Positions 1-21,583 of a stretch of DNA of 27,015 bases are shown in pieces. The notes below the pieces were generated by a model, which saw only the letters and a program-made list of their open reading frames with translations, made no database searches and had not been told where the DNA came from. Location: the IMG/VR virus record IMGVR_UViG_3300047287_000154, positions 1 to 27,015 of that record; one strand, written 5' to 3'. The number at the start of each line of letters is the position of its first letter. The stretch's first letter is position 1. Source of the stretch: a virus. The position numbers were made by a program, and so were the translations under genes.

Positions 1-135
1 CCGCTAGCGTCAGCCCCCAATCGTCCTAAACCCTTGCGGCGCAAGGAGTCTCATGTGAGTCTCAAATGAGACGCCCTTAAGACAGTTTAGGGCGGTTTAG
101 CGGGGTTTAACTTAACGCTAGATCGATTCAACTTT
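1..135. promoter_or_regulatory. Non-coding region upstream of small terminase; candidate cos/TerS-binding or operator region
   Basis: No gene is seen here. The region holds a perfect hairpin, CTTGC-GGC-GCAAG (33-45). It has two direct copies of GAGTCTCA (46-53 and 57-64), the second followed by an inverted TGAGAC (67-72). Three tandem 10-bp repeats begin GTTTAG, GTTTAG and GTTTAA at 85, 95 and 105, exactly one helical turn apart. CCTAAAC at 25-31 is an inverted copy of the start of the first repeat. Phages with GpA-type terminases usually carry cos next to the small terminase gene, so a packaging site is the first idea. A promoter/operator region for the late operon is the alternative. The repeats are seen; the function is inferred. 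Confidence 0.5.
85..114 (+). repeat. Three 10-bp iterons, GTTTAG-type
   Basis: GTTTAG, GTTTAG and GTTTAA occur at 85-90, 95-100 and 105-110 with a strict 10-bp period, so all lie on one face of the helix. They sit 22 bp before the GTG start of the small terminase gene. Such phasing suits cooperative binding by an HTH protein, for example the terminase small subunit itself. Confidence 0.6.
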
Positions 136-3090: not shown

Positions 3091-4670
3091 TGGGATTGCG
3101 GACGCGGCTATTCAAGGCGATGGGTTTTGAGCCGATGCGGCCACGTGCGCGGGCGTATCAGGGCGCAAGGGTTAGCCGGCTCACGGCTGACTGGGTGACA
3201 AGCGGCACGAGTGCCGACAGCGAAATCAAGAGCAGCTTCAAGGCGCTGCGCAATCGTGCGCGTCAGCTGTGCCGTGACAACGACTATGCGCGGCAAGCAT
3301 TGCGGAGCATCCAGAACAATGTGATTGGGCACGGCATCAAGCACCAGTCGCAGGTGCGGATGCTGCGTGGCGGCCGGTTGGATGAGGCGATCAACGGCCA
3401 GATCCACGAGGCATGGGAGCGGTGGATGCACAAGAGCCGCTGTGATGTGAGCGGCCTGCTGGGCTTCCACGATATGGAGCGCCTGCTGTGCCGCAGCTTG
3501 GCGGAGAGCGGCGAGGTGTTCGTGCGGATGATCCGCAAACCGTTCGGTGGATCGCGCGTGCCGTTCGCGCTGCAGATCCTCGAGGCGGATTATCTGATTG
3601 ACGACGATATCCCGCAGGCCAAGGAAGGCAACACGGTGCGGATGGGTATCGAGGTGGATGGCTACCTACGGCCGCAGGCTTATCACTTCTATGCCAACCA
3701 TCCGGGCGACACGTATGCGGGCAATCCGCGCACCAATGGGCGGCGTGTGCGCGTGCCTGCTGATGAGGTGATTCATCTCTTCCTCCCTGAGCGCCCTCAG
3801 CAGACACGAGGAGTCACTTGGTTCGCCTCGGCGCTGATGCGGCTGCACATGCTGCAGGGCTATGAGGAGGCCGAGGTGGTGCGGGCTAGGGCGAGCAGTG
3901 CGCTGATGGGCTTCATCCAATCGCCCGAGGGTGAGCTGATTGGCGATGAGGTGTATGAGAACGAGCGCGTAAGCGATTTCCAGCCTGGTGTGTTCAAGTA
4001 TCTAGCGCCGGGCGAAAGCGTGACGGTGCCGGATCTGAATGCACCCGATGGCCAGCTGGAACCATTCACCCGTTCGATGCTGCGTGCTGTGGCGGCTGGC
4101 GTTGGCGTGAGCTTCGAGAGCATTAGCAAGAACTTCTCAGAGAGCAACTACAGCAGCAGCCGGCTGAGCCTGCTCGAGGAGCGCGACACGTACAAGGTGC
4201 TGCAGCGGTTCTTCATCGAGAACTTCCATCAGACGGTCTACGAGAACTGGCTCGAGATGGCGGTACTGAGCGGTGAGCTGAACCTGCCGGCATATGAGAC
4301 GAACCCGGATCGCTACCGCGCCAGCCGCTGGATCCCACGCAGCTGGGAATGGGTGGACCCGCAGAAGGAAGTGAACGCCTACAAGGATGCGGTGCGCTGT
4401 GGCTTCAAGACATTGGGCCAGGTAATCAGCGAGCAAGGTGGTGATCTCGATGATGTGCTGATGGCGCGTCAGTCAGAGCTGGCCATGCTGGATGAGATGG
4501 GCATTGTGCTCGATACCGATCCGAGCGAGGTAAATGCTGGCGGTGGTTCGCAGCCTGCTGTGACGATGGGCGGCCAGCCGGCGTTTGAGGATACGGAACC
4601 GCCGATGGATGAAGAGGAATACGAAGAGGAATCAGTTCTCGAGGATCCGCTCGAAGGGCCTGAGGACTGA
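3090..4670 (+). CDS. Portal protein, lambda family
   Basis: 526 aa. Forms the dodecameric ring at one capsid vertex through which DNA enters and to which the tail is joined. The N-terminal half matches the lambda gpB-type pattern: a basic start, the RNRARQLCRDNDYARQALRSI segment, then SGEVFVRMIRKPF and QILEADYLID. Later segments such as GVSFESISKNFSESNYSSSRLSLLE and the RWIPRSWEWVDPQKE block are also typical. The C-terminal ~35 residues are strongly acidic (MDEEEYEEE). ATG 3090 overlaps the preceding stop, and the stop overlaps the next gene (TGATGG at 4668), so expression is coupled on both sides. Confidence 0.95.
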   Translation: MGLRTRLFKAMGFEPMRPRARAYQGARVSRLTADWVTSGTSADSEIKSSFKALRNRARQLCRDNDYARQALRSIQNNVIGHGIKHQSQVRMLRGGRLDEAINGQIHEAWERWMHKSRCDVSGLLGFHDMERLLCRSLAESGEVFVRMIRKPFGGSRVPFALQILEADYLIDDDIPQAKEGNTVRMGIEVDGYLRPQAYHFYANHPGDTYAGNPRTNGRRVRVPADEVIHLFLPERPQQTRGVTWFASALMRLHMLQGYEEAEVVRARASSALMGFIQSPEGELIGDEVYENERVSDFQPGVFKYLAPGESVTVPDLNAPDGQLEPFTRSMLRAVAAGVGVSFESISKNFSESNYSSSRLSLLEERDTYKVLQRFFIENFHQTVYENWLEMAVLSGELNLPAYETNPDRYRASRWIPRSWEWVDPQKEVNAYKDAVRCGFKTLGQVISEQGGDLDDVLMARQSELAMLDEMGIVLDTDPSEVNAGGGSQPAVTMGGQPAFEDTEPPMDEEEYEEESVLEDPLEGPED

Positions 4671-7300
4671 TGGCAACAATCCAAGGCGAGACCGTTGACT
4701 TGATGCCAACGGATGGCATGAGGGAAGAGGCTCAGCGTTATCGCGATTGGAAGGCTGAGGGCGAGGCAGGCGGTACTGAAGTCGCAGCACGCCGCGCCAG
4801 CCAGATCCTGAGCGGTGATGAGCTGAGCCCTGACACGGTGATCACGATGGCGGCATGGTTCGCTCGCCATAAGGTTGATAAGCAAGGCGAGGGATTCAGT
4901 CCTGGCGAGGATGGCTATCCATCAGCCGGCCGCGTTGCATGGGCCGCATGGGGCGGTGATGCCGGACAGAGTTGGGCGAATGAGAAGGCGGATAGAATCA
5001 AGGCATTGCAGGATAGACAAATGGAAGAGGCGCGCCCTTATCCAAATGAACATGCCGCGAGGTTGACTGATCCTGATCAGTACGACGAACTGCGCCGTGA
5101 GAATGATGCCGGCGGCGATGGGATTGATTTCATCTACGGCATCAAGGAAGGCGAGAGCGAGATTCAGGCAGTGAGGTTTGATGCGCAGCAGTTCACGCCA
5201 TCTGAAGCGCGTGATTGGCTGAGTGAGCACGAGATGGATCCGATCATGTTTGAAGAGGCAACCGGCGAGCAGCGCGTGATGCGTGCTGAACCGGATGAGC
5301 TTTCCGAGGGTGATTTCGTGCAGTGGGATTCGAGCGGCGGTACGGCCCGCGGTCGGATCGAACATGTGATGCGCGAGGGCACGTTAGGCGTGCCCGGCAC
5401 CGAGTTCAGCATTGAAGCCAGCGCTGAGGATCCGGCTGCATTGATTCGGATCTACAGCGAGGGCGAGGATGGATGGGAGGCCACCGAGACATTGGTGGGC
5501 CACAAGTTCTCGACGCTGCGCAAGATTGCTGAGCTGCGTGCGATGCCAGGCATCGGCCGCCACCAACGCGCTGAGATCACAACCTTCGATGAGGTTGAGG
5601 ATCGCACCTATGAGTTTCCTTTCAGCTCTGAGTATCCGGTTGCGCGTTACTTCGGCAACGAGATCTTGAGCCACGAGGGCAATGCCGCTGATCTCAGCCG
5701 CCTGAATGATGGTGCACCGCTGCTGTTCAATCACAACCCTGATCGAGTGATCGGCGTTGTGGAGCGTGCATATATCGATGGCAAACGTCGCCGCGGTTAT
5801 GCACGTGTGCGGTTCAGCCGCAATCCATTCGCTCAGGAAGTCCTGAACGATGTGAAGGATGGCGTTCTTCGGAATGTCTCCTTTGGCTACTCCATTGACA
5901 AAATGGAGGAGCGCGGCAGCGGTGACTTTGTTGCCACTGCCTGGTCTCCTTATGAGGTTTCTGTTGTCTCGGTGCCGGCTGATCCCGGCGTCGGGATCGG
6001 CAGATCCTTAGAGGCCGAGCAAGCTGCCTCGGCAGCACCTACACCTGATCCCATTCCTGCAATGGAAAACACCACCCCTGATCTGGCAGTGGTGCGGGCC
6101 GAAGCCGCTGAGGCTGAGCGCTCCCGCATCGCTGGCATTTCTGCACTGACCGAAAAGCACGGCATGGCCGACCTCGGCCGTCAGCTGATCGAGTCTGGTC
6201 GTTCTATCGACGAGGCCCGCGCTGCTGTGCTCGACAACCTCGACATCAAACAGGAGCCTGTGAACATGAGCGCCGCTGAAATCGGCCTGACTGAGAAGGA
6301 GAGCCGCAGCTTCTCCTTCATGCGTGCCATTAACTATTTGGCCAACCCGACCGACCGCGCTGCCCGTGAGGCTGCCGCGTTCGAGATCGAGGCATCTGAA
6401 GCCGCTGCTGCAAAGCTCGGCCGTCAGTCCCGCGGCATCACAATCCCCCAGGATGTGCTGCGCCGTGACCTGAATGTTGGCGCTGCAACCGCTGGCGGCA
6501 ACCTGGTTGCCACTGAGCTGGATGCTGGCAGCTTCATCGATCTGCTGCGCAACGCCTCCGCTCTGGATCAGGCAGGCGCCACTGTGCTGACCGGCCTCAC
6601 CGGCAACGTGGCCATTCCCCGTCAATCCGGCGCTGGCACTGCTTACTGGGTTGCTGAGTCCGGTGCCCCCACCGAATCCCAGCAGACCGTGGATCAGGTG
6701 AGCCTGACTCCTAAGACTGTGGCCGCCTTCACTGACTACAGCCGCCGCCTGATGATCCAGTCCTCCATCGATGTGGAGAACATGGTGCGCACCGACCTGG
6801 CTCGTGTGCTCGCACTCAAGATCGACCTGGCTGGTCTCTATGGCACCGGCTCCAACGGCGAGCCCCTCGGCCTGAAGCTCACCACCGGCATCGGCACCGA
6901 GGACTTCGCCGCTGACACCCCTACCTTCGCTGAGGTGGTGGCACTGGAAAGCGACGTGGCAACCGCCAACGCCCTGCTCGGCAGCCCCGTCTACCTGATG
7001 AACGCTGCCATGCGCGGCGGCCTCAAGACCAAGGCCAAGGACGCAGGTTCCGGCCTGTTCGTCATGGAAGGCAACGAGGTGAACGGCTATCAGGGCGTGC
7101 TGTCCAACCAAGTTGCTTCTGGTGATCTGTGGTTCGGCAACTTCGCTGACCTGATCATCGGCTACTTCTCCGGCCTGGATCTGATGGTGGACCCCTACAC
7201 CAACAGCACCTCTGGCACCGTGCGCGTGGTTGCCATGCAGGATGTGGACATTGCCGTCCGTCACCCTGAATCCTTCAGCCGCGGCAACAACACTCTCTGA
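4670..7300 (+). CDS. Fused prohead protease (U35) and HK97-type major capsid protein with extra N-terminal modules
   Basis: 876 aa in one uninterrupted frame. Residues ~20-110 are a module ending GFSPGEDGYPSAGRVAWAAW, seen near phage capsid proteases. Residues ~122-200 (PYPNEHAARLTDPDQYDELR) form a second module. Residues ~211-282 (GDFVQWDSSGGTARGRI) resemble the HVA1/DUF2945 Tudor-like fold. Residues ~300-450 are an HK97 prohead protease with His355 (LLFNHN) and Ser404 (RNVSFGYSI). A charged helical linker follows, then an HK97 capsid fold from ~585 to the end. The protease should mature the capsid by cutting after assembly. A Shine-Dalgarno-like AGGAG at 6252-6256 before ATG 6266 could also give a separate 344-aa capsid protein. 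Codon style changes near 6060, with Ser TCC replacing AGC. The protease and capsid calls are firm; the N-terminal module names are from memory. Confidence 0.93.
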   Translation: MATIQGETVDLMPTDGMREEAQRYRDWKAEGEAGGTEVAARRASQILSGDELSPDTVITMAAWFARHKVDKQGEGFSPGEDGYPSAGRVAWAAWGGDAGQSWANEKADRIKALQDRQMEEARPYPNEHAARLTDPDQYDELRRENDAGGDGIDFIYGIKEGESEIQAVRFDAQQFTPSEARDWLSEHEMDPIMFEEATGEQRVMRAEPDELSEGDFVQWDSSGGTARGRIEHVMREGTLGVPGTEFSIEASAEDPAALIRIYSEGEDGWEATETLVGHKFSTLRKIAELRAMPGIGRHQRAEITTFDEVEDRTYEFPFSSEYPVARYFGNEILSHEGNAADLSRLNDGAPLLFNHNPDRVIGVVERAYIDGKRRRGYARVRFSRNPFAQEVLNDVKDGVLRNVSFGYSIDKMEERGSGDFVATAWSPYEVSVVSVPADPGVGIGRSLEAEQAASAAPTPDPIPAMENTTPDLAVVRAEAAEAERSRIAGISALTEKHGMADLGRQLIESGRSIDEARAAVLDNLDIKQEPVNMSAAEIGLTEKESRSFSFMRAINYLANPTDRAAREAAAFEIEASEAAAAKLGRQSRGITIPQDVLRRDLNVGAATAGGNLVATELDAGSFIDLLRNASALDQAGATVLTGLTGNVAIPRQSGAGTAYWVAESGAPTESQQTVDQVSLTPKTVAAFTDYSRRLMIQSSIDVENMVRTDLARVLALKIDLAGLYGTGSNGEPLGLKLTTGIGTEDFAADTPTFAEVVALESDVATANALLGSPVYLMNAAMRGGLKTKAKDAGSGLFVMEGNEVNGYQGVLSNQVASGDLWFGNFADLIIGYFSGLDLMVDPYTNSTSGTVRVVAMQDVDIAVRHPESFSRGNNTL
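6252..6268 (+). promoter_or_regulatory. Possible internal ribosome binding site for stand-alone capsid protein
   Basis: AGGAG at 6252-6256 is followed nine bases later by an in-frame ATG (6266). Translation from it would give a 344-aa protein beginning MSAAEIGLTEKESRSF, that is, the capsid with a short N-terminal arm and no protease. Most genes here lack such a good site, which makes it stand out. Another in-frame ATG at 6062 has no visible Shine-Dalgarno. Confidence 0.4.
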
Positions 7301-16075: not shown

Positions 16076-16576
16076 ATGGCCTTTCCTGCTCTGATCCCAT
16101 CGGCTCGCGTCTACACGCCTGGCGATGTGCCGCAACAGCAACAGGTGACCCTCTCAGGCGTCAATAGCGGCTACAGGCAGGGCAACCGCAGGATCGGGCA
16201 GACGCTGCAGCTGGCGTTCAACAACATCAGCGAATCAGATCTGAACATCATCAAGGCTCATTACCTAGATCGGCAGGGCACCTTCGACATTTTCTTTCTG
16301 TCTGCCGAGGTATGGAACGGCTACACCACGCCACCAGTTCCGCTGCTGAGTGATTACGCATGGCGGTATGCCGGGCCGCCGGTCATCACAGATGGATCCT
16401 GCGATCTTTGGAGCGTCGAACTGGAGCTAACCACCTACGCGATCAACACCGGCGATCTGATTTTCGATGGCGGCTTAGCGGCTGCAACCCCAGCCCGCGA
16501 CTATATTCTTAACGGTGGGCTGGCTGCTGCCACGCCAGCACGCGACTATGTGATCAACCCTGGCGCAGCGACATGA
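16076..16576 (+). CDS. Minor tail protein, paralogue 2, with C-terminal repeat
   Basis: 166 aa, two bases after paralogue 1 (TAGCC-ATG). It shares the GDVPQQQ, QGNRRIGQTLQLAF and LSAEVWNGYTTPPV blocks with its neighbour, so the pair arose by gene duplication. It has an added tail of ~45 residues with an internal repeat, GGLAAATPARDY(I/V), present twice. The stop overlaps the tail-fibre ATG by four bases (ATGA at 16573). The repeated tail may dock to the fibre; that is inference from adjacency. Confidence 0.78.
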   Translation: MAFPALIPSARVYTPGDVPQQQQVTLSGVNSGYRQGNRRIGQTLQLAFNNISESDLNIIKAHYLDRQGTFDIFFLSAEVWNGYTTPPVPLLSDYAWRYAGPPVITDGSCDLWSVELELTTYAINTGDLIFDGGLAAATPARDYILNGGLAAATPARDYVINPGAAT

Positions 16577-18975
16577 GTATCACCCTCTCAGCACTGCAAC
16601 GGCAGCGCCGCGATACAGCAGCCAACTGGACGGCTGAAAATCCAACGCTGCTGGCTGGTGAGATTGGTGTTGAGAGTGATACCGGCTACTGGAAGATCGG
16701 CAACGGCAGCACCGCATGGGCCAGCCTTGGCTATGTACGTGGCACGCAGCTGAGCGCCTATCCGCTGACGAATGCGGATATCGCCAGCAATGCCGAAATC
16801 GCCGTTAGCAAACTGGCCGATGGCACGGCGCGGCAGCTGCTGCAGACCGCAGCCAATGGCAACGATGTTGAGTGGACAAGCAACATCGACGTGCCAGGCA
16901 CGTTGGACGTGACAGGTGCGGCAACCTTTGACAACAACGTCATCATTCAAGGCGATTTAACGGTCAATGGCACCGAGACGATCATCAATACTCAGACGCT
17001 GGACGTTGAAGATAAAAACATCGTCATCGGCAAGGTCACCACACCATCGGATGTGACGGCCGATGGTGGCGGCATCACACTCAAGGGGACCACCGACAAA
17101 ACGATCAGTTGGCTCGATGCCACCGACGCGTGGACGCTGAGCGAGCACGTCAACATTGCCAGCGCTAAGGAATACCGCATTGCTGGCACCAAGGTGCTGG
17201 ATGCCACCAGCTTGGGTAGTGGCGTCACCGGATCCAGCCTCACCAGTGTTGGCACCATTGGCACCGGCACATGGCAGGGCAGCACAATCGCCACTGGTTA
17301 TGGCGGCACCGGGCAGACCACCTATACCGACGGCCAACTGCTGATCGGCAAGACTGATGGAACGCTTGCTAAAGCCACAATCACGGCCGGCTCCGGTATT
17401 TCAGTAACAAACGGCAATGGCTCAATCTCCATTTCAGCCACTGGCGCAGGCGTTACTAGCATTTCTCAAGGAGATACAAAGGCGGAAGTTATAGACACAG
17501 GTACAGATGGGCGTTTTGTTGTCACGACAGAAAACAGCGAAAGGCTAAGAGTTGATAACGTTGGCCGTGTGGGGATTGGCGTAACGCCATCAACTATTGA
17601 TTCAACGGCAAGCCGTGGCGTGCTTGCATTGGATGGCGGAACAAGTGTTGCTTTTTGGGCCAGTATTGCCGGTACTGGCAAAGGCACTTTTCAGCATGAC
17701 GGCACTAATGCCATTTTGTACAATTCAGCGAATGGCTACCTAGCGTTTGGCACTAACAATACAGAACGTCTGCGTATATCGTCTTCCGGTGCGATTACAA
17801 CTAGCAATGACATCACACTGAACGCTCAATCTGATCTGCGCTTTGCCGACGCTGACAGCAGCAACTGGGTTGCCTTCCAAGGTCCTGCATCGATCACCAG
17901 TAACGTCACTTGGACCCTGCCCAGTGCAGATGGCACCAGCGGACAAGTTCTGAGCACTAATGGCTCAGGCACATTGTCTTGGGCTACGGCTTCCGGTGGC
18001 GGCGGATCAAGCATTACTCAAGGCAATACCACCGCTGAAGTCATCGACACCGGCAGCGATGGCCGATTTGTTGTGACGACGGAGGGCAGTGAGAGAGCGC
18101 GTATTGACAGCTCCGGCAGGCTCTTAGTTGGTACGTCTACTAGCCTTAGGAGTTCAGCACTTGTTCAAATTGCAGGAACAAATTATCCTGGCTTTGATAT
18201 TAACTCATTTGGCTCAAGTAGTGCCTGTGAATTGGCATTAAGACGGGCTCGGGGCACTCAAGGTTCGCCAACTGTTGTGGCAAGTGGCGACACTGTAGGG
18301 GTTGTTTATTTTCAGGGATATGATGGCGCTAATCATATAACCGCAGCAACAATTCAGGCAAACATAGACGCCACTCCCGGCACTAACGACATGCCGGGCA
18401 GGTTAGTGTTCTCCGTTTCGAGCGATGGCTCGGCATCGCCAACCGAACGCATGAGGGTAAGAAACGATGGCTGGGTGGGGATTTTTAGCGCCACAGAAAC
18501 GTTATCGTTGCGTTCTGCTGCAGCAGCCAGCAGCACCTCCGCATTCTTGGATGGTCGCCCTAGTGCGACTAACACTACCGATGGCGGATCCTCAACTATT
18601 AAGATTTACACAAACGGCAACGTTTTCAATACAAATAACTCCTACGGCTCCATTTCTGACATCAAGCTAAAGGAGAACATTGTTGATGCCAATTCGCAAT
18701 GGAATGATCTTAAGGCTCTACAGGTTCGTAACTACAATTTTAAGGAAGGTCAAACCCATACTCAAATCGGTCTGATTGCCCAAGAAGTCGAACTTGTTTC
18801 CCCTGGACTTGTCAGCGAAACCCCTGACCGCGACGAAGATGGCAACGACCTTGGCACCGTTACCAAGAGCGTCAACTATTCCGTCCTCTACATGAAGGCG
18901 GTGAAGGCACTGCAAGAAGCAATGGAGCGGATTGAAGCTCTGGAAGCCAAAGTCGCAGCCTTTGAGGCGTCGTAG
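16573..18975 (+). CDS. Tail fibre with Mtd-like N-terminus and C-terminal S74 chaperone
   Basis: 800 aa. Residues ~15-55 (NPTLLAGEIGVESDTGYWKIGNGSTAWASLGY) form the Mtd_N-like attachment domain. Residues ~105-185 (GDLTVNGTETIINTQTLDVEDKNIVIG, GGGITLKGTTDKTISW) resemble cyanophage T4-like fibre shafts. A Gly/Ser/Thr-rich shaft follows with two ~42-residue repeats at ~297 and ~480 (AEVIDTG.DGRFVVTTE.SER.R). The end is an intramolecular chaperone of peptidase family S74: SDIKLKEN with catalytic Ser695 and Lys700, and a final coiled coil (KALQEAMERIEALEAKVAAF). The chaperone trimerises the fibre and then cuts itself off before Ser695. DNA for parts of the shaft and tip is more AT-rich than its flanks, a hint of exchanged receptor-binding segments. 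Confidence 0.93.
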   Translation: MSITLSALQRQRRDTAANWTAENPTLLAGEIGVESDTGYWKIGNGSTAWASLGYVRGTQLSAYPLTNADIASNAEIAVSKLADGTARQLLQTAANGNDVEWTSNIDVPGTLDVTGAATFDNNVIIQGDLTVNGTETIINTQTLDVEDKNIVIGKVTTPSDVTADGGGITLKGTTDKTISWLDATDAWTLSEHVNIASAKEYRIAGTKVLDATSLGSGVTGSSLTSVGTIGTGTWQGSTIATGYGGTGQTTYTDGQLLIGKTDGTLAKATITAGSGISVTNGNGSISISATGAGVTSISQGDTKAEVIDTGTDGRFVVTTENSERLRVDNVGRVGIGVTPSTIDSTASRGVLALDGGTSVAFWASIAGTGKGTFQHDGTNAILYNSANGYLAFGTNNTERLRISSSGAITTSNDITLNAQSDLRFADADSSNWVAFQGPASITSNVTWTLPSADGTSGQVLSTNGSGTLSWATASGGGGSSITQGNTTAEVIDTGSDGRFVVTTEGSERARIDSSGRLLVGTSTSLRSSALVQIAGTNYPGFDINSFGSSSACELALRRARGTQGSPTVVASGDTVGVVYFQGYDGANHITAATIQANIDATPGTNDMPGRLVFSVSSDGSASPTERMRVRNDGWVGIFSATETLSLRSAAAASSTSAFLDGRPSATNTTDGGSSTIKIYTNGNVFNTNNSYGSISDIKLKENIVDANSQWNDLKALQVRNYNFKEGQTHTQIGLIAQEVELVSPGLVSETPDRDEDGNDLGTVTKSVNYSVLYMKAVKALQEAMERIEALEAKVAAFEAS

Positions 18976-20503: not shown

Positions 20504-21583
20504 ATGGCCAACGACGCGCCAATCACCCTGCAGCAGCTCTTCAAGTATTTCAAGGGCCAGCCGCATCAGAGCGCCGCGATTCAGCAGCTCGATCAGGATC
20601 TCTCCGCCAACGGCTACGACGCCGCAATGCGTCGCGACCGCGAATGGTTCCAAACCTGGAGCCAAGACGGCAAGCAAACCGATCTCGCCGGCGCCATCAA
20701 GCTCATTAAGGAGTTCGAGGGCTGTCACCTCAGCGCCTACCCCGATCCGCTCAGCGGTGGCGAGCCGTGGACCATCGGCTATGGCACCACGCGCTATAGC
20801 AATGGCACGCCCGTGAAACGTGGCGACATGATTAACGTGATCGAGGCCGATATGCTGCTGCGCCTTGAGATCGACCGCATCACTGACAAGCTGCGCACCA
20901 CCGTGCCGCACTGGAATGTGATGGATGACAATCAGCGCAGTGCCCTGGTGAGCTTCGCCTACAACCTCGGCGCTGGCTTCTACGGATCAGCAGGATTCGA
21001 GACCATCAGCAAGCGTCTGCGAGAGCGCAACTGGGCAGCAGTGCCAGCAGCGCTCGAGCTCTACCGCAACCCTGGCACCAATGTGGAGGCTGGCCTGCTG
21101 CGCCGCCGCCGTGCTGAAGGCAAATTATGGGGGCAGCATCAGGCTGCAGCACAGCCGGAGACCGCCAAGCTGCGCCCCGGCAGCCCCTTCACGGCCAGGA
21201 TCACGCCGCACATCAGGTTGGGGGAATTTGCGCTGGATCAGGAGGCCCGCAGATTCCAGAATCAGGGTCAGCTCGATATTGCTGCAGAGCTAGCGGCGTT
21301 CTTGGAGCGGGTGCGCGTGCAATTCGGAGGGAAACCCATCGTGATCACATCGGGCTATCGCCCGCCTGCTATCAATGCCGCAGCCGGTGGCGCCAGCAAC
21401 AGCGAGCACCTCTACAAACCTGGATGCGGTGCGGTCGATTTCGTGATTCAAGGCGCCGACATGATGGCGGTGCAACGCTGGTGCGATCAGAACTGGCCCT
21501 ATTCGCTGGGCTACGCCGCTCCTCAGTTCATCCATCTAGGCATCCGCGCTGGCAGACCTAAAGTCCGCTGGGATTACAACTGA
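20504..21583 (+). CDS. Two-domain endolysin: GH24 lysozyme plus M15 peptidase
   Basis: 359 aa cell-wall hydrolase. After a ~60-residue N-terminal region, residues ~62-208 are a T4-type lysozyme: the catalytic triad is visible as Glu72 in EFEG, Asp81 and Thr90 in WTIGYG, with ALVSFAYNLG further on. Residues ~233-357 are an M15-type zinc peptidase with SGYRPP (283-288), His302 and Asp312 in SEHLYKPGCGAVDF, and His344 in FIHLG. The two activities would cut the glycan strands and the peptide cross-links or stems. No signal peptide is seen, so a holin is needed. Fusions of these two domains are known but uncommon. Confidence 0.93.
   Translation: MANDAPITLQQLFKYFKGQPHQSAAIQQLDQDLSANGYDAAMRRDREWFQTWSQDGKQTDLAGAIKLIKEFEGCHLSAYPDPLSGGEPWTIGYGTTRYSNGTPVKRGDMINVIEADMLLRLEIDRITDKLRTTVPHWNVMDDNQRSALVSFAYNLGAGFYGSAGFETISKRLRERNWAAVPAALELYRNPGTNVEAGLLRRRRAEGKLWGQHQAAAQPETAKLRPGSPFTARITPHIRLGEFALDQEARRFQNQGQLDIAAELAAFLERVRVQFGGKPIVITSGYRPPAINAAAGGASNSEHLYKPGCGAVDFVIQGADMMAVQRWCDQNWPYSLGYAAPQFIHLGIRAGRPKVRWDYN

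Follow-up and report, generated by a model that had tools for sequence, protein, structure and literature searches.

A probable cosB region of a lambda-type cos site in front of the small terminase gene of an IMG/VR virus

Results

A candidate cosB region upstream of terS

The first 135 bases of the window (the whole stretch of DNA analyzed here, a virus record of 27,015 bases) most probably make up the greater part of cosB in a lambda-type cos site, with base 1 separated from the left end of the virion chromosome by 22 nt. We put the probability of this reading, which derives from sequence comparison, at about 0.86. The initial annotation had proposed a cosB-like array for the small terminase at this place, and this proposal was strongly supported, mainly by the finding that the class of the array tracks the recognition helix of TerS; binding as such is predicted.

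From position 136 on, the window encodes a terminase (small and large subunits), a portal, a head protein, tail genes, and an endolysin. The small subunit gene terS (136-669, + strand, GTG start, 177 aa) matched phrog_57, terminase small subunit (E 1.4e-25), and its product scored just under the cut-off for DUF1441 in Pfam. The large subunit gene terL (638-2521, + strand, start codon not settled) matched phrog_15 (E 1.4e-265), and the Pfam domains GpA_ATPase and GpA_nuclease scored far over their cut-offs, identifying TerL as GpA-type, as in a lambda-type terminase. By TerL, the top isolates among the matches listed were the Synechococcus siphophages S-CBS3 (51.0%) and S-CBS1 (50.6%); for TerS, the values among the matches listed were 58.1% over 80% of the query for S-CBS3 and 62.5% over 50% for S-CBS1. 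The window's TerS matched 21 phage records, and the four Synechococcus ones were all S-CBS3 or S-CBS1. These two phages and S-LBS1 were considered as isolate tests and set aside, their records being without an intact cos-to-terS stretch in front of terS. The scan of genome contigs for a host gave a single relative, a Planctomycetota MAG contig (L377, JAPOKD010000005.1) whose cos region is similar and whose TerS shows 73% identity; it may be a misbinned phage contig.

Elsewhere in the window, an 876-aa single frame (4670-7300) matched both head maturation protease and major head protein families, so that protease and capsid appear to be fused. The endolysin (20504-21583) has two catalytic domains, phage lysozyme and peptidase M15, and the tail fibre (16573-18975) carries an Mtd_N domain and a C-terminal Peptidase_S74 chaperone domain.

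Contigs of relatives end at fixed bases

Relatives were collected in three IMG/VR scans with TerS queries (best 80 of 404, of 386, and of 434 kept), which gave 111 distinct terS neighborhoods after identical flanks had been merged; L038, L363, and L364, without upstream sequence, were dropped before this count. The region upstream of terS was read through in 24 of the 111, and the other 87 stopped within 230 nt upstream of terS. Among these 87 distinct relatives, 53 shared one end point, 22 nt upstream of the position equivalent to window base 1: 41 exactly at GGT, nine with one extra base (T in seven), and three behind foreign letters. The latter contigs carried 7-20 foreign letters directly before GGT; two of the strings ended in CCGATCT, and the third looks like another sequencing adapter. 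Adapter-like letters are expected at this position if adapters were ligated to a physical end. The remaining 34 contigs stopped elsewhere, 9 to 159 nt from terS, a count that includes L375, which starts with GGT and was not fitted by the script's pattern. Alignment with the relatives placed window base 1 at bp 23 of the chromosome, the window's end being located through them since its own record begins inside.

The right end was approached through a pattern scan for cosQ and the nick site, which gave 80 loci among the matches listed, chosen by pattern and not by kinship. In 19 of them the contig ended no more than 200 nt beyond the nick. The distance was exactly 13 nt in 13 of these, 14 nt (with a trailing A) in one, 11 nt in one, and greater in four. 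The right-end strings belonged to several lineages; GGTCGTTCGTTCG, the string of the present lineage, was found exactly in three and, with an A appended, in one more. One contig (G008) had both ends, with a 13-nt overlap between them; a second (G044) showed the same 13-nt overlap once one leading T was trimmed, and the right end of a third (G025) overlapped the left end of a different contig (L039) by 13 nt after removal of one leading T. The 13-mer was single in all 22 read-through loci checked. The packaged DNA of the relatives thus begins with GGT(C/G), and right-end contigs stop after the same 13 nt, giving the fixed ends and short terminal repeat of a lambda-type cos site, as seen in assembled contigs rather than in virion DNA. 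If ends were filled in during library making, the presence of the 13 nt at both contig ends points to 5' overhangs, since 3' overhangs would vanish from both ends; from these assemblies we infer 13-nt cohesive ends. Assembled metagenome contigs are therefore sufficient to locate cohesive ends to the base.

In four relatives (L074, L279, L281, and L305) the conserved boxes lie one base further from the nick, a shift that could reflect an overhang of 14 nt. The two-fold symmetry of cosN was weak, involving 2-6 of 16-17 bases in 13 read-through loci, against 10 of 16 for lambda cosN with the same script.

A lambda-like cosQ, GGGTCCYT, was found before the nick in 21 of 22 read-through relatives, at 26 nt in 19 and at 25 nt in two, L338 being the one without it; in a wider count it was present in 23 of 24. 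Lambda has GGGTCCTTTC 30 nt before its end. The window's own record does not include this part. GGGTCCYTY occurred once in 18 of 45 records searched and was absent from 27, many of them fragments ending at the nick; 17 of the 18 matches were at the cos site or nick or at a matching contig end, and the one in L095 was elsewhere.

Several further elements were seen around cosQ. A palindrome of the TGC-N3-GCA type, like that at window 32-46 described below, stood just before cosQ in L014, L022, L074, L377, and the right ends L104 and L106, that is, in six of 50 stretches, at a distance of 16-17 nt in the five with a complete cosQ; ten further stretches had such a match 55-72 nt from cosQ. L074 had a second row, GTTTAG/GTTTAG/GTTAAC, left of cosQ. 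By eye, TTCTCAATAA or its complement was found in the cosB of L013, L014, L022, and L039 and upstream of cosQ in L104, L106, L142, L154, and L377; this element thus flanks the nick on either side in lineages whose other boxes differ. Distant phages (L133, L142, and L143) had a similar cosQ and nick site, a different TerS, and repeated boxes of their own, such as TGTCAACC in L143 and GGTTAA in L142.

Repeats in the first 135 bases of the window

Several repeats had been noted from the sequence of this region, and some of them needed correction. Three GTTTA(G/A) boxes were indeed present, GTTTAG at 85 and 95 and GTTTAA at 105, with a spacing of exactly 10 bp; together with the CTTAAC that follows, they form a row of R-like boxes on the + strand (85-110). 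The inverted CCTAAAC was likewise found, at 25-31; it reads GTTTAGG on the - strand and occupies the position of lambda R3. The perfect 13-base hairpin exists as the inner part of a longer palindrome, CCTTGCGGCGCAAGG, which spans 15 bases (32-46) with two 7-bp arms around one base and has TGC-N3-GCA as its conserved core. GAGTCTCA does occur twice, at 46-53 and 57-64, but its supposed inverted copy is limited to TGAGAC (67-72), 6 of the 8 bases, the whole making an imperfect dyad (46-72) of which only (A/G)TCT is widely kept. A pair that had been overlooked, CTAGCGT (4-10) and its inverted partner ACGCTAG (115-121), encloses the repeat block; ACGCTAG is absent from some relatives. The conserved box CTAGCGTCAG (4-13, + strand) lies just past the cohesive end, with its TAGCG at bp 27 from the nick.

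Chance levels were obtained from dinucleotide shuffles of window 1-135. Any 5-mer occurring three times at an equal spacing of 6-21 was seen in six of 5000 shuffles, any repeated 8-mer in 331 of 5000, and a perfect hairpin with arms of at least 7 and a loop of up to 3 in 34 of 1000. By these counts, the phased GTTTA triplet is unlikely to have arisen by chance, whereas the GAGTCTCA pair alone and the hairpin alone are only mildly unlikely. When both strands were scanned, three GTTTA(G/A) at 10 bp occurred once in the 27-kb window.

Two classes of array among relatives

The geometry of the boxes was followed in 75 nick-to-terS sequences, 72 of them distinct. The 36 of the 111 neighborhoods outside this set were mostly cut short, and some were missed by the script's start pattern (e.g. 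L081, L297, L299, and L375). The 72 relatives fell into class A (52) and class B (20). TAGCG started at bp 27 in 68 and at bp 28 in four; TAGCG(T/C/A)(C/T)A was present in all 72 and TAGCGNCAG in 70. The left R-like box (TAAA, CAAA, or TTAA) started at bp 49 in 68 of 72 and at bp 50 in four, as expected for a lambda-type site. It had the TAAA form in 51 of the 52 class A relatives (TTAA in L279) and the form TCAAAC/CCAAAC in 18 of the 20 class B relatives, the left box of L065 and L079 being class A-like. Of the 72 relatives, 67 kept the palindrome core TGC-N3-GCA (50/52 in class A, 17/20 in class B), and the same class counts were obtained for (A/G)TCT. GAGTCTCA was present in 20 of 72 relatives and twice in six.

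The exact GTTTA(G/A) triplet recurred in only three of the 72 (L031, L032, and L035), and its third exact GTTTA copy is nearly private to the window. Conservation of the 10-bp period, which the initial annotation had suggested checking, was found in part. In class A, 45 of the 52 relatives had three copies of a TTA core at 10-bp spacing; three copies at any other equal spacing from 6 to 14 were seen in none of them. Class B differs: its row consists of GTTTGA- and GTTCAA-type boxes, 8 bp apart in 18 of 20. The 10-bp period is thus a property of one class. Genome ends mapping elsewhere, together with repeats not conserved in relatives, had been named as the outcome that would speak against a cosB array. 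This combination did not arise: in relatives the left end was placed 22 nt before the position of window base 1, and boxes and register are kept.

WATCAANNNNTTR, which we take to be the IHF consensus, had no exact match in the 72 relatives and a match with one mismatch in nine; lambda itself had none and one, respectively. The IHF site I1 in cosB is absent in N15. A wider column count over 54 pattern loci (near copies removed from the 65 with sufficient sequence) found CTA/TAG near bp 25-30 in 29 of 54 and gave nothing firm, the signal being likely diluted by chance matches and unrelated phages.

The array class follows three residues of TerS

The AlphaFold2 model of TerS (mean pLDDT 79.8, pTM 0.33) is usable at domain level only. 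Its order of elements, H5-12, H16-22, E31-34, E37-41, and H42-52, fits a winged helix, in which residues 16-22 would form the recognition helix (181-201, + strand). Foldseek with this model returned nothing at E 0.001 (best E 0.17); weak matches included 7lwr_A (E 0.53, probability 0.98) and 1j9i (E 1.1, probability 0.80), and structure comparison gave Z 6.0 over 65 residues for 1j9i and Z 6.5 over 52 for 7lwr. Terminase DNA-binding domains were among the top structure matches, beside MerR and Xis folds, and on the strength of the model these matches would indicate a fold class, not special kinship. A phmmer search of TerS against solved structures gave one weak match (E 0.18).

The class of the array matched the class of the recognition helix, as defined by residues 15, 18, and 21, in 72 of 72 relatives; residue 21 was His in 52/52 of class A and Ala in 20/20 of class B. 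These residues, spaced by three and on one face of the helix, were the sole fully diagnostic TerS columns save for one gappy column with six letters. Columns 50 and 62 (97%), 25 (96%), and 6 (94%) were nearly diagnostic, and in them some hitch-hiking is apparent. At the DNA level, five bases in the 200 nt around the start codon were diagnostic. Codon 6 had one of them and codons 15, 18, and 21 the other four, and within this stretch no third codon position was fully diagnostic. A tree of the C-terminal part of TerS, a quick one with few columns and many open forks, implied 11 class changes, at least five of them forced by well-supported branches, and two sets of identical C-termini were shared by both classes. 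The 42-row protein alignment (A1) is a hand-picked subset.

The concordance is strong, but it does not amount to independent proof of a coupling between TerS and array: array and helix lie close together on the DNA, so one recombination event would move both. It is from this concordance and from residues 15, 18, and 21 that binding of the R boxes by TerS is predicted. CTAGCGTCAG and TGC-N3-GCA are unlikely to be read by the recognition helix, as they are unchanged across the array classes (TGC-N3-GCA in most relatives); that they contact TerL or another partner is a guess.

Alternative explanations for the repeats

We considered the possibility that the region is a promoter or regulator region for the late operon, read by a phage activator or sigma factor, as the initial annotation had offered as its alternative. 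The repeats do stand directly upstream of the structural operon, and sigma-factor genes are annotated in related Synechococcus phages. Yet the one test applied, a scan for sigma-70-like promoters in positions 1-700, found none (0.3 expected) and so lent no support, and packaging is favored by the constant distances of the boxes from the genome end and by their agreement with the TerS helix. We regard regulation in place of packaging as improbable; a dual role as packaging and regulator site is conceivable.

A leader of the terS transcript that folds into the window's long stem, and either controls the late operon or is itself functional, seems slightly less probable still. The + strand of the window folded at -51.1 kcal/mol (z -5.08), with none of 200 shuffles as good. 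However, folding was also good for the - strand (-49.1 kcal/mol, z -3.21), a result to be expected from DNA boxes that face in opposite directions. Conservation was assessed in a 29-row DNA alignment (A2), a hand-picked subset consisting of the window and 28 class A relatives. Single-sequence folds had z below -3 in 12 of 29 (window included), with a median of -2.4, and the window's fold applied to all 29 gave 35 cells with double changes against 27.1 (6 of 500 shuffles as high). It also beat slid versions of itself (74.9% paired against at most 51.3%), which is expected of a fold derived from one of the sequences. Against shuffles, in contrast, the paired cells stood at 74.9% versus 74.3% (51 of 500 as high), the pairs with double changes at 11 versus 10.6, and the covariation score at 0.105 versus 0.098 (46 of 500), so that one of five measures of covariation across relatives was raised. 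The consensus fold of the 29 sequences reached -1.0 kcal/mol, with none of its 12 pairs changed on both sides, and individual pairs of the CTAGCGT/ACGCTAG helix were unpaired in up to 10 of 29. An Rfam scan of the window gave no family at gathering threshold, and a tRNA scan found nothing. The RNA element, striking at the level of the window, fails at that of the family.

Least probable of all is a headful (pac) start, in which a first cut near terS would be preferred and the other ends permuted. In its favor, 34 of 87 left contig ends do fall elsewhere, and S-LBS1, a Synechococcus siphophage described as close to S-CBS1 and S-CBS3, is headful by PhageTerm according to the part of PMC6157547 available. 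Against it, right ends gather at a single exact position 13 nt beyond the left end, where headful ends would spread, the contig ends show no permuted, variable pattern, and S-LBS1 is not among the 21 records matched by the window's TerS. In the S-LBS1 record (MG271909), GGGTCCYT is missing from the + strand and present once on the - strand, within a gene (32961); the termini of this phage are worth a second look.

Discussion

A packaging site that uses the elements described above would work as follows. TerL would make staggered nicks at cosN, leaving the 13-nt 5' cohesive ends. Through its N-terminal domain, a predicted winged helix, TerS would bind both the inverted box that starts at bp 49 and corresponds to lambda R3 and the GTTTA row, whose boxes lie one helical turn apart. 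Bound to its boxes, TerS would anchor TerL on cosN; packaging would start at the left end and proceed rightward across terS, with termination at the next cos served by GGGTCCTT, the cosQ that precedes the nick. The CTAGCGTCAG and TGC-N3-GCA boxes would probably be contacts for TerL or another partner.

A bolder proposal, which we put forward tentatively and hold to be rather doubtful, is that cosB here is a phased row of TerS sites and that this row, together with the three helix residues, forms a swappable packaging-specificity cassette exchanged within the lineage. If so, a ring or filament of TerS could sit on this row along one face of the DNA with no need of an IHF hairpin, and the cassette would keep co-infecting relatives from packaging each other's DNA. 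Packaging specificity would then have been recoded in nature by the change from 10-bp to 8-bp spacing along with residues 15, 18, and 21.

The ways in which a packaging enzyme can change its DNA target and stay functional were established with coliphages such as lambda, 21, and N15. The present lineage offers dozens of natural variants, in which two array types change together with three residues in backgrounds that are otherwise shuffled. It would provide a ready-made panel for testing the packaging-specificity switch and the possible replacement of the IHF bend by an array in helical phase. Among the matches listed in our literature search, which covered few subscription journals, no title or abstract opening named a cos site in this lineage, and GGGTCCTT gave no match in the literature on phage terminases.

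Comparison with known packaging sites

HK97 resembles the present site in its cos packaging and in TerS binding just downstream of the cut (bp 15-29), and differs in its 10-nt 3' overhang, both according to the available portion of PMC11331095; the repeat at both ends found here implies 5' overhangs. Pac sites such as that of SPP1 also have several TerS sites near the packaging start, as the accessible part of PMC4669245 describes, and differ from the ends found here, which are fixed to the base. The S-CBS3 and S-CBS1 records both begin inside terS and so hold no cosB next to it; GGGTCC(C/T)T stands near the end of both.

The closest likeness is to lambda cos (gpNu1/gpA; also 21, phi80, and N15). 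The order cosQ, nick site, boxes, terS, and terL is the same, GGGTCCTT is common to both as cosQ, and a TTTCGCTA-like element lies at the same distance from the second nick, the 15 nt after this nick having a median identity to lambda of 10 (range 1-13, 72 relatives). The CTAGCGTCAG box stands where lambda has TTTTCGCTA, a first R box is found near bp 50, and R boxes occur in both orientations; TerL is GpA-type and TerS, here by model, of the winged-helix type. The part of PMC9026076 available places R3 at bp 50-65 in lambda and at bp 48-60 in N15, describes a 3-bp deletion between cosN and cosB as severe, and locates the recognition helix of lambda TerS at 17-24. In lambda and 21, as far as the sections of PMC4669245 at hand relate, recognition helix and R boxes differ together, cosQ and cosN are shared, and the helix and R-site differences result in a more than 1000-fold preference for self DNA.

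Several features set the present site apart from that of lambda. Its cosN symmetry is weak and cosQ is 25-26 nt from the nick, against 30 nt in lambda. It has a GTTTA row at 10-bp (or 8-bp) spacing where lambda has three separated 16-bp R sites, no clear IHF site, and a conserved TGC-N3-GCA palindrome. The cohesive ends are 13 nt long here and 12 nt in lambda, e.g. GGTCGTTCGTTCG versus GGGCGGCGACCT, and for this reason the phage is not filed as lambda-like, although the site would work like lambda cos. The site is thus of an ordinary kind, located where a cos site is to be expected, and at the same time a clear variant, marked by 13-nt ends, a phased row of boxes, and what appears to be a specificity switch in nature.
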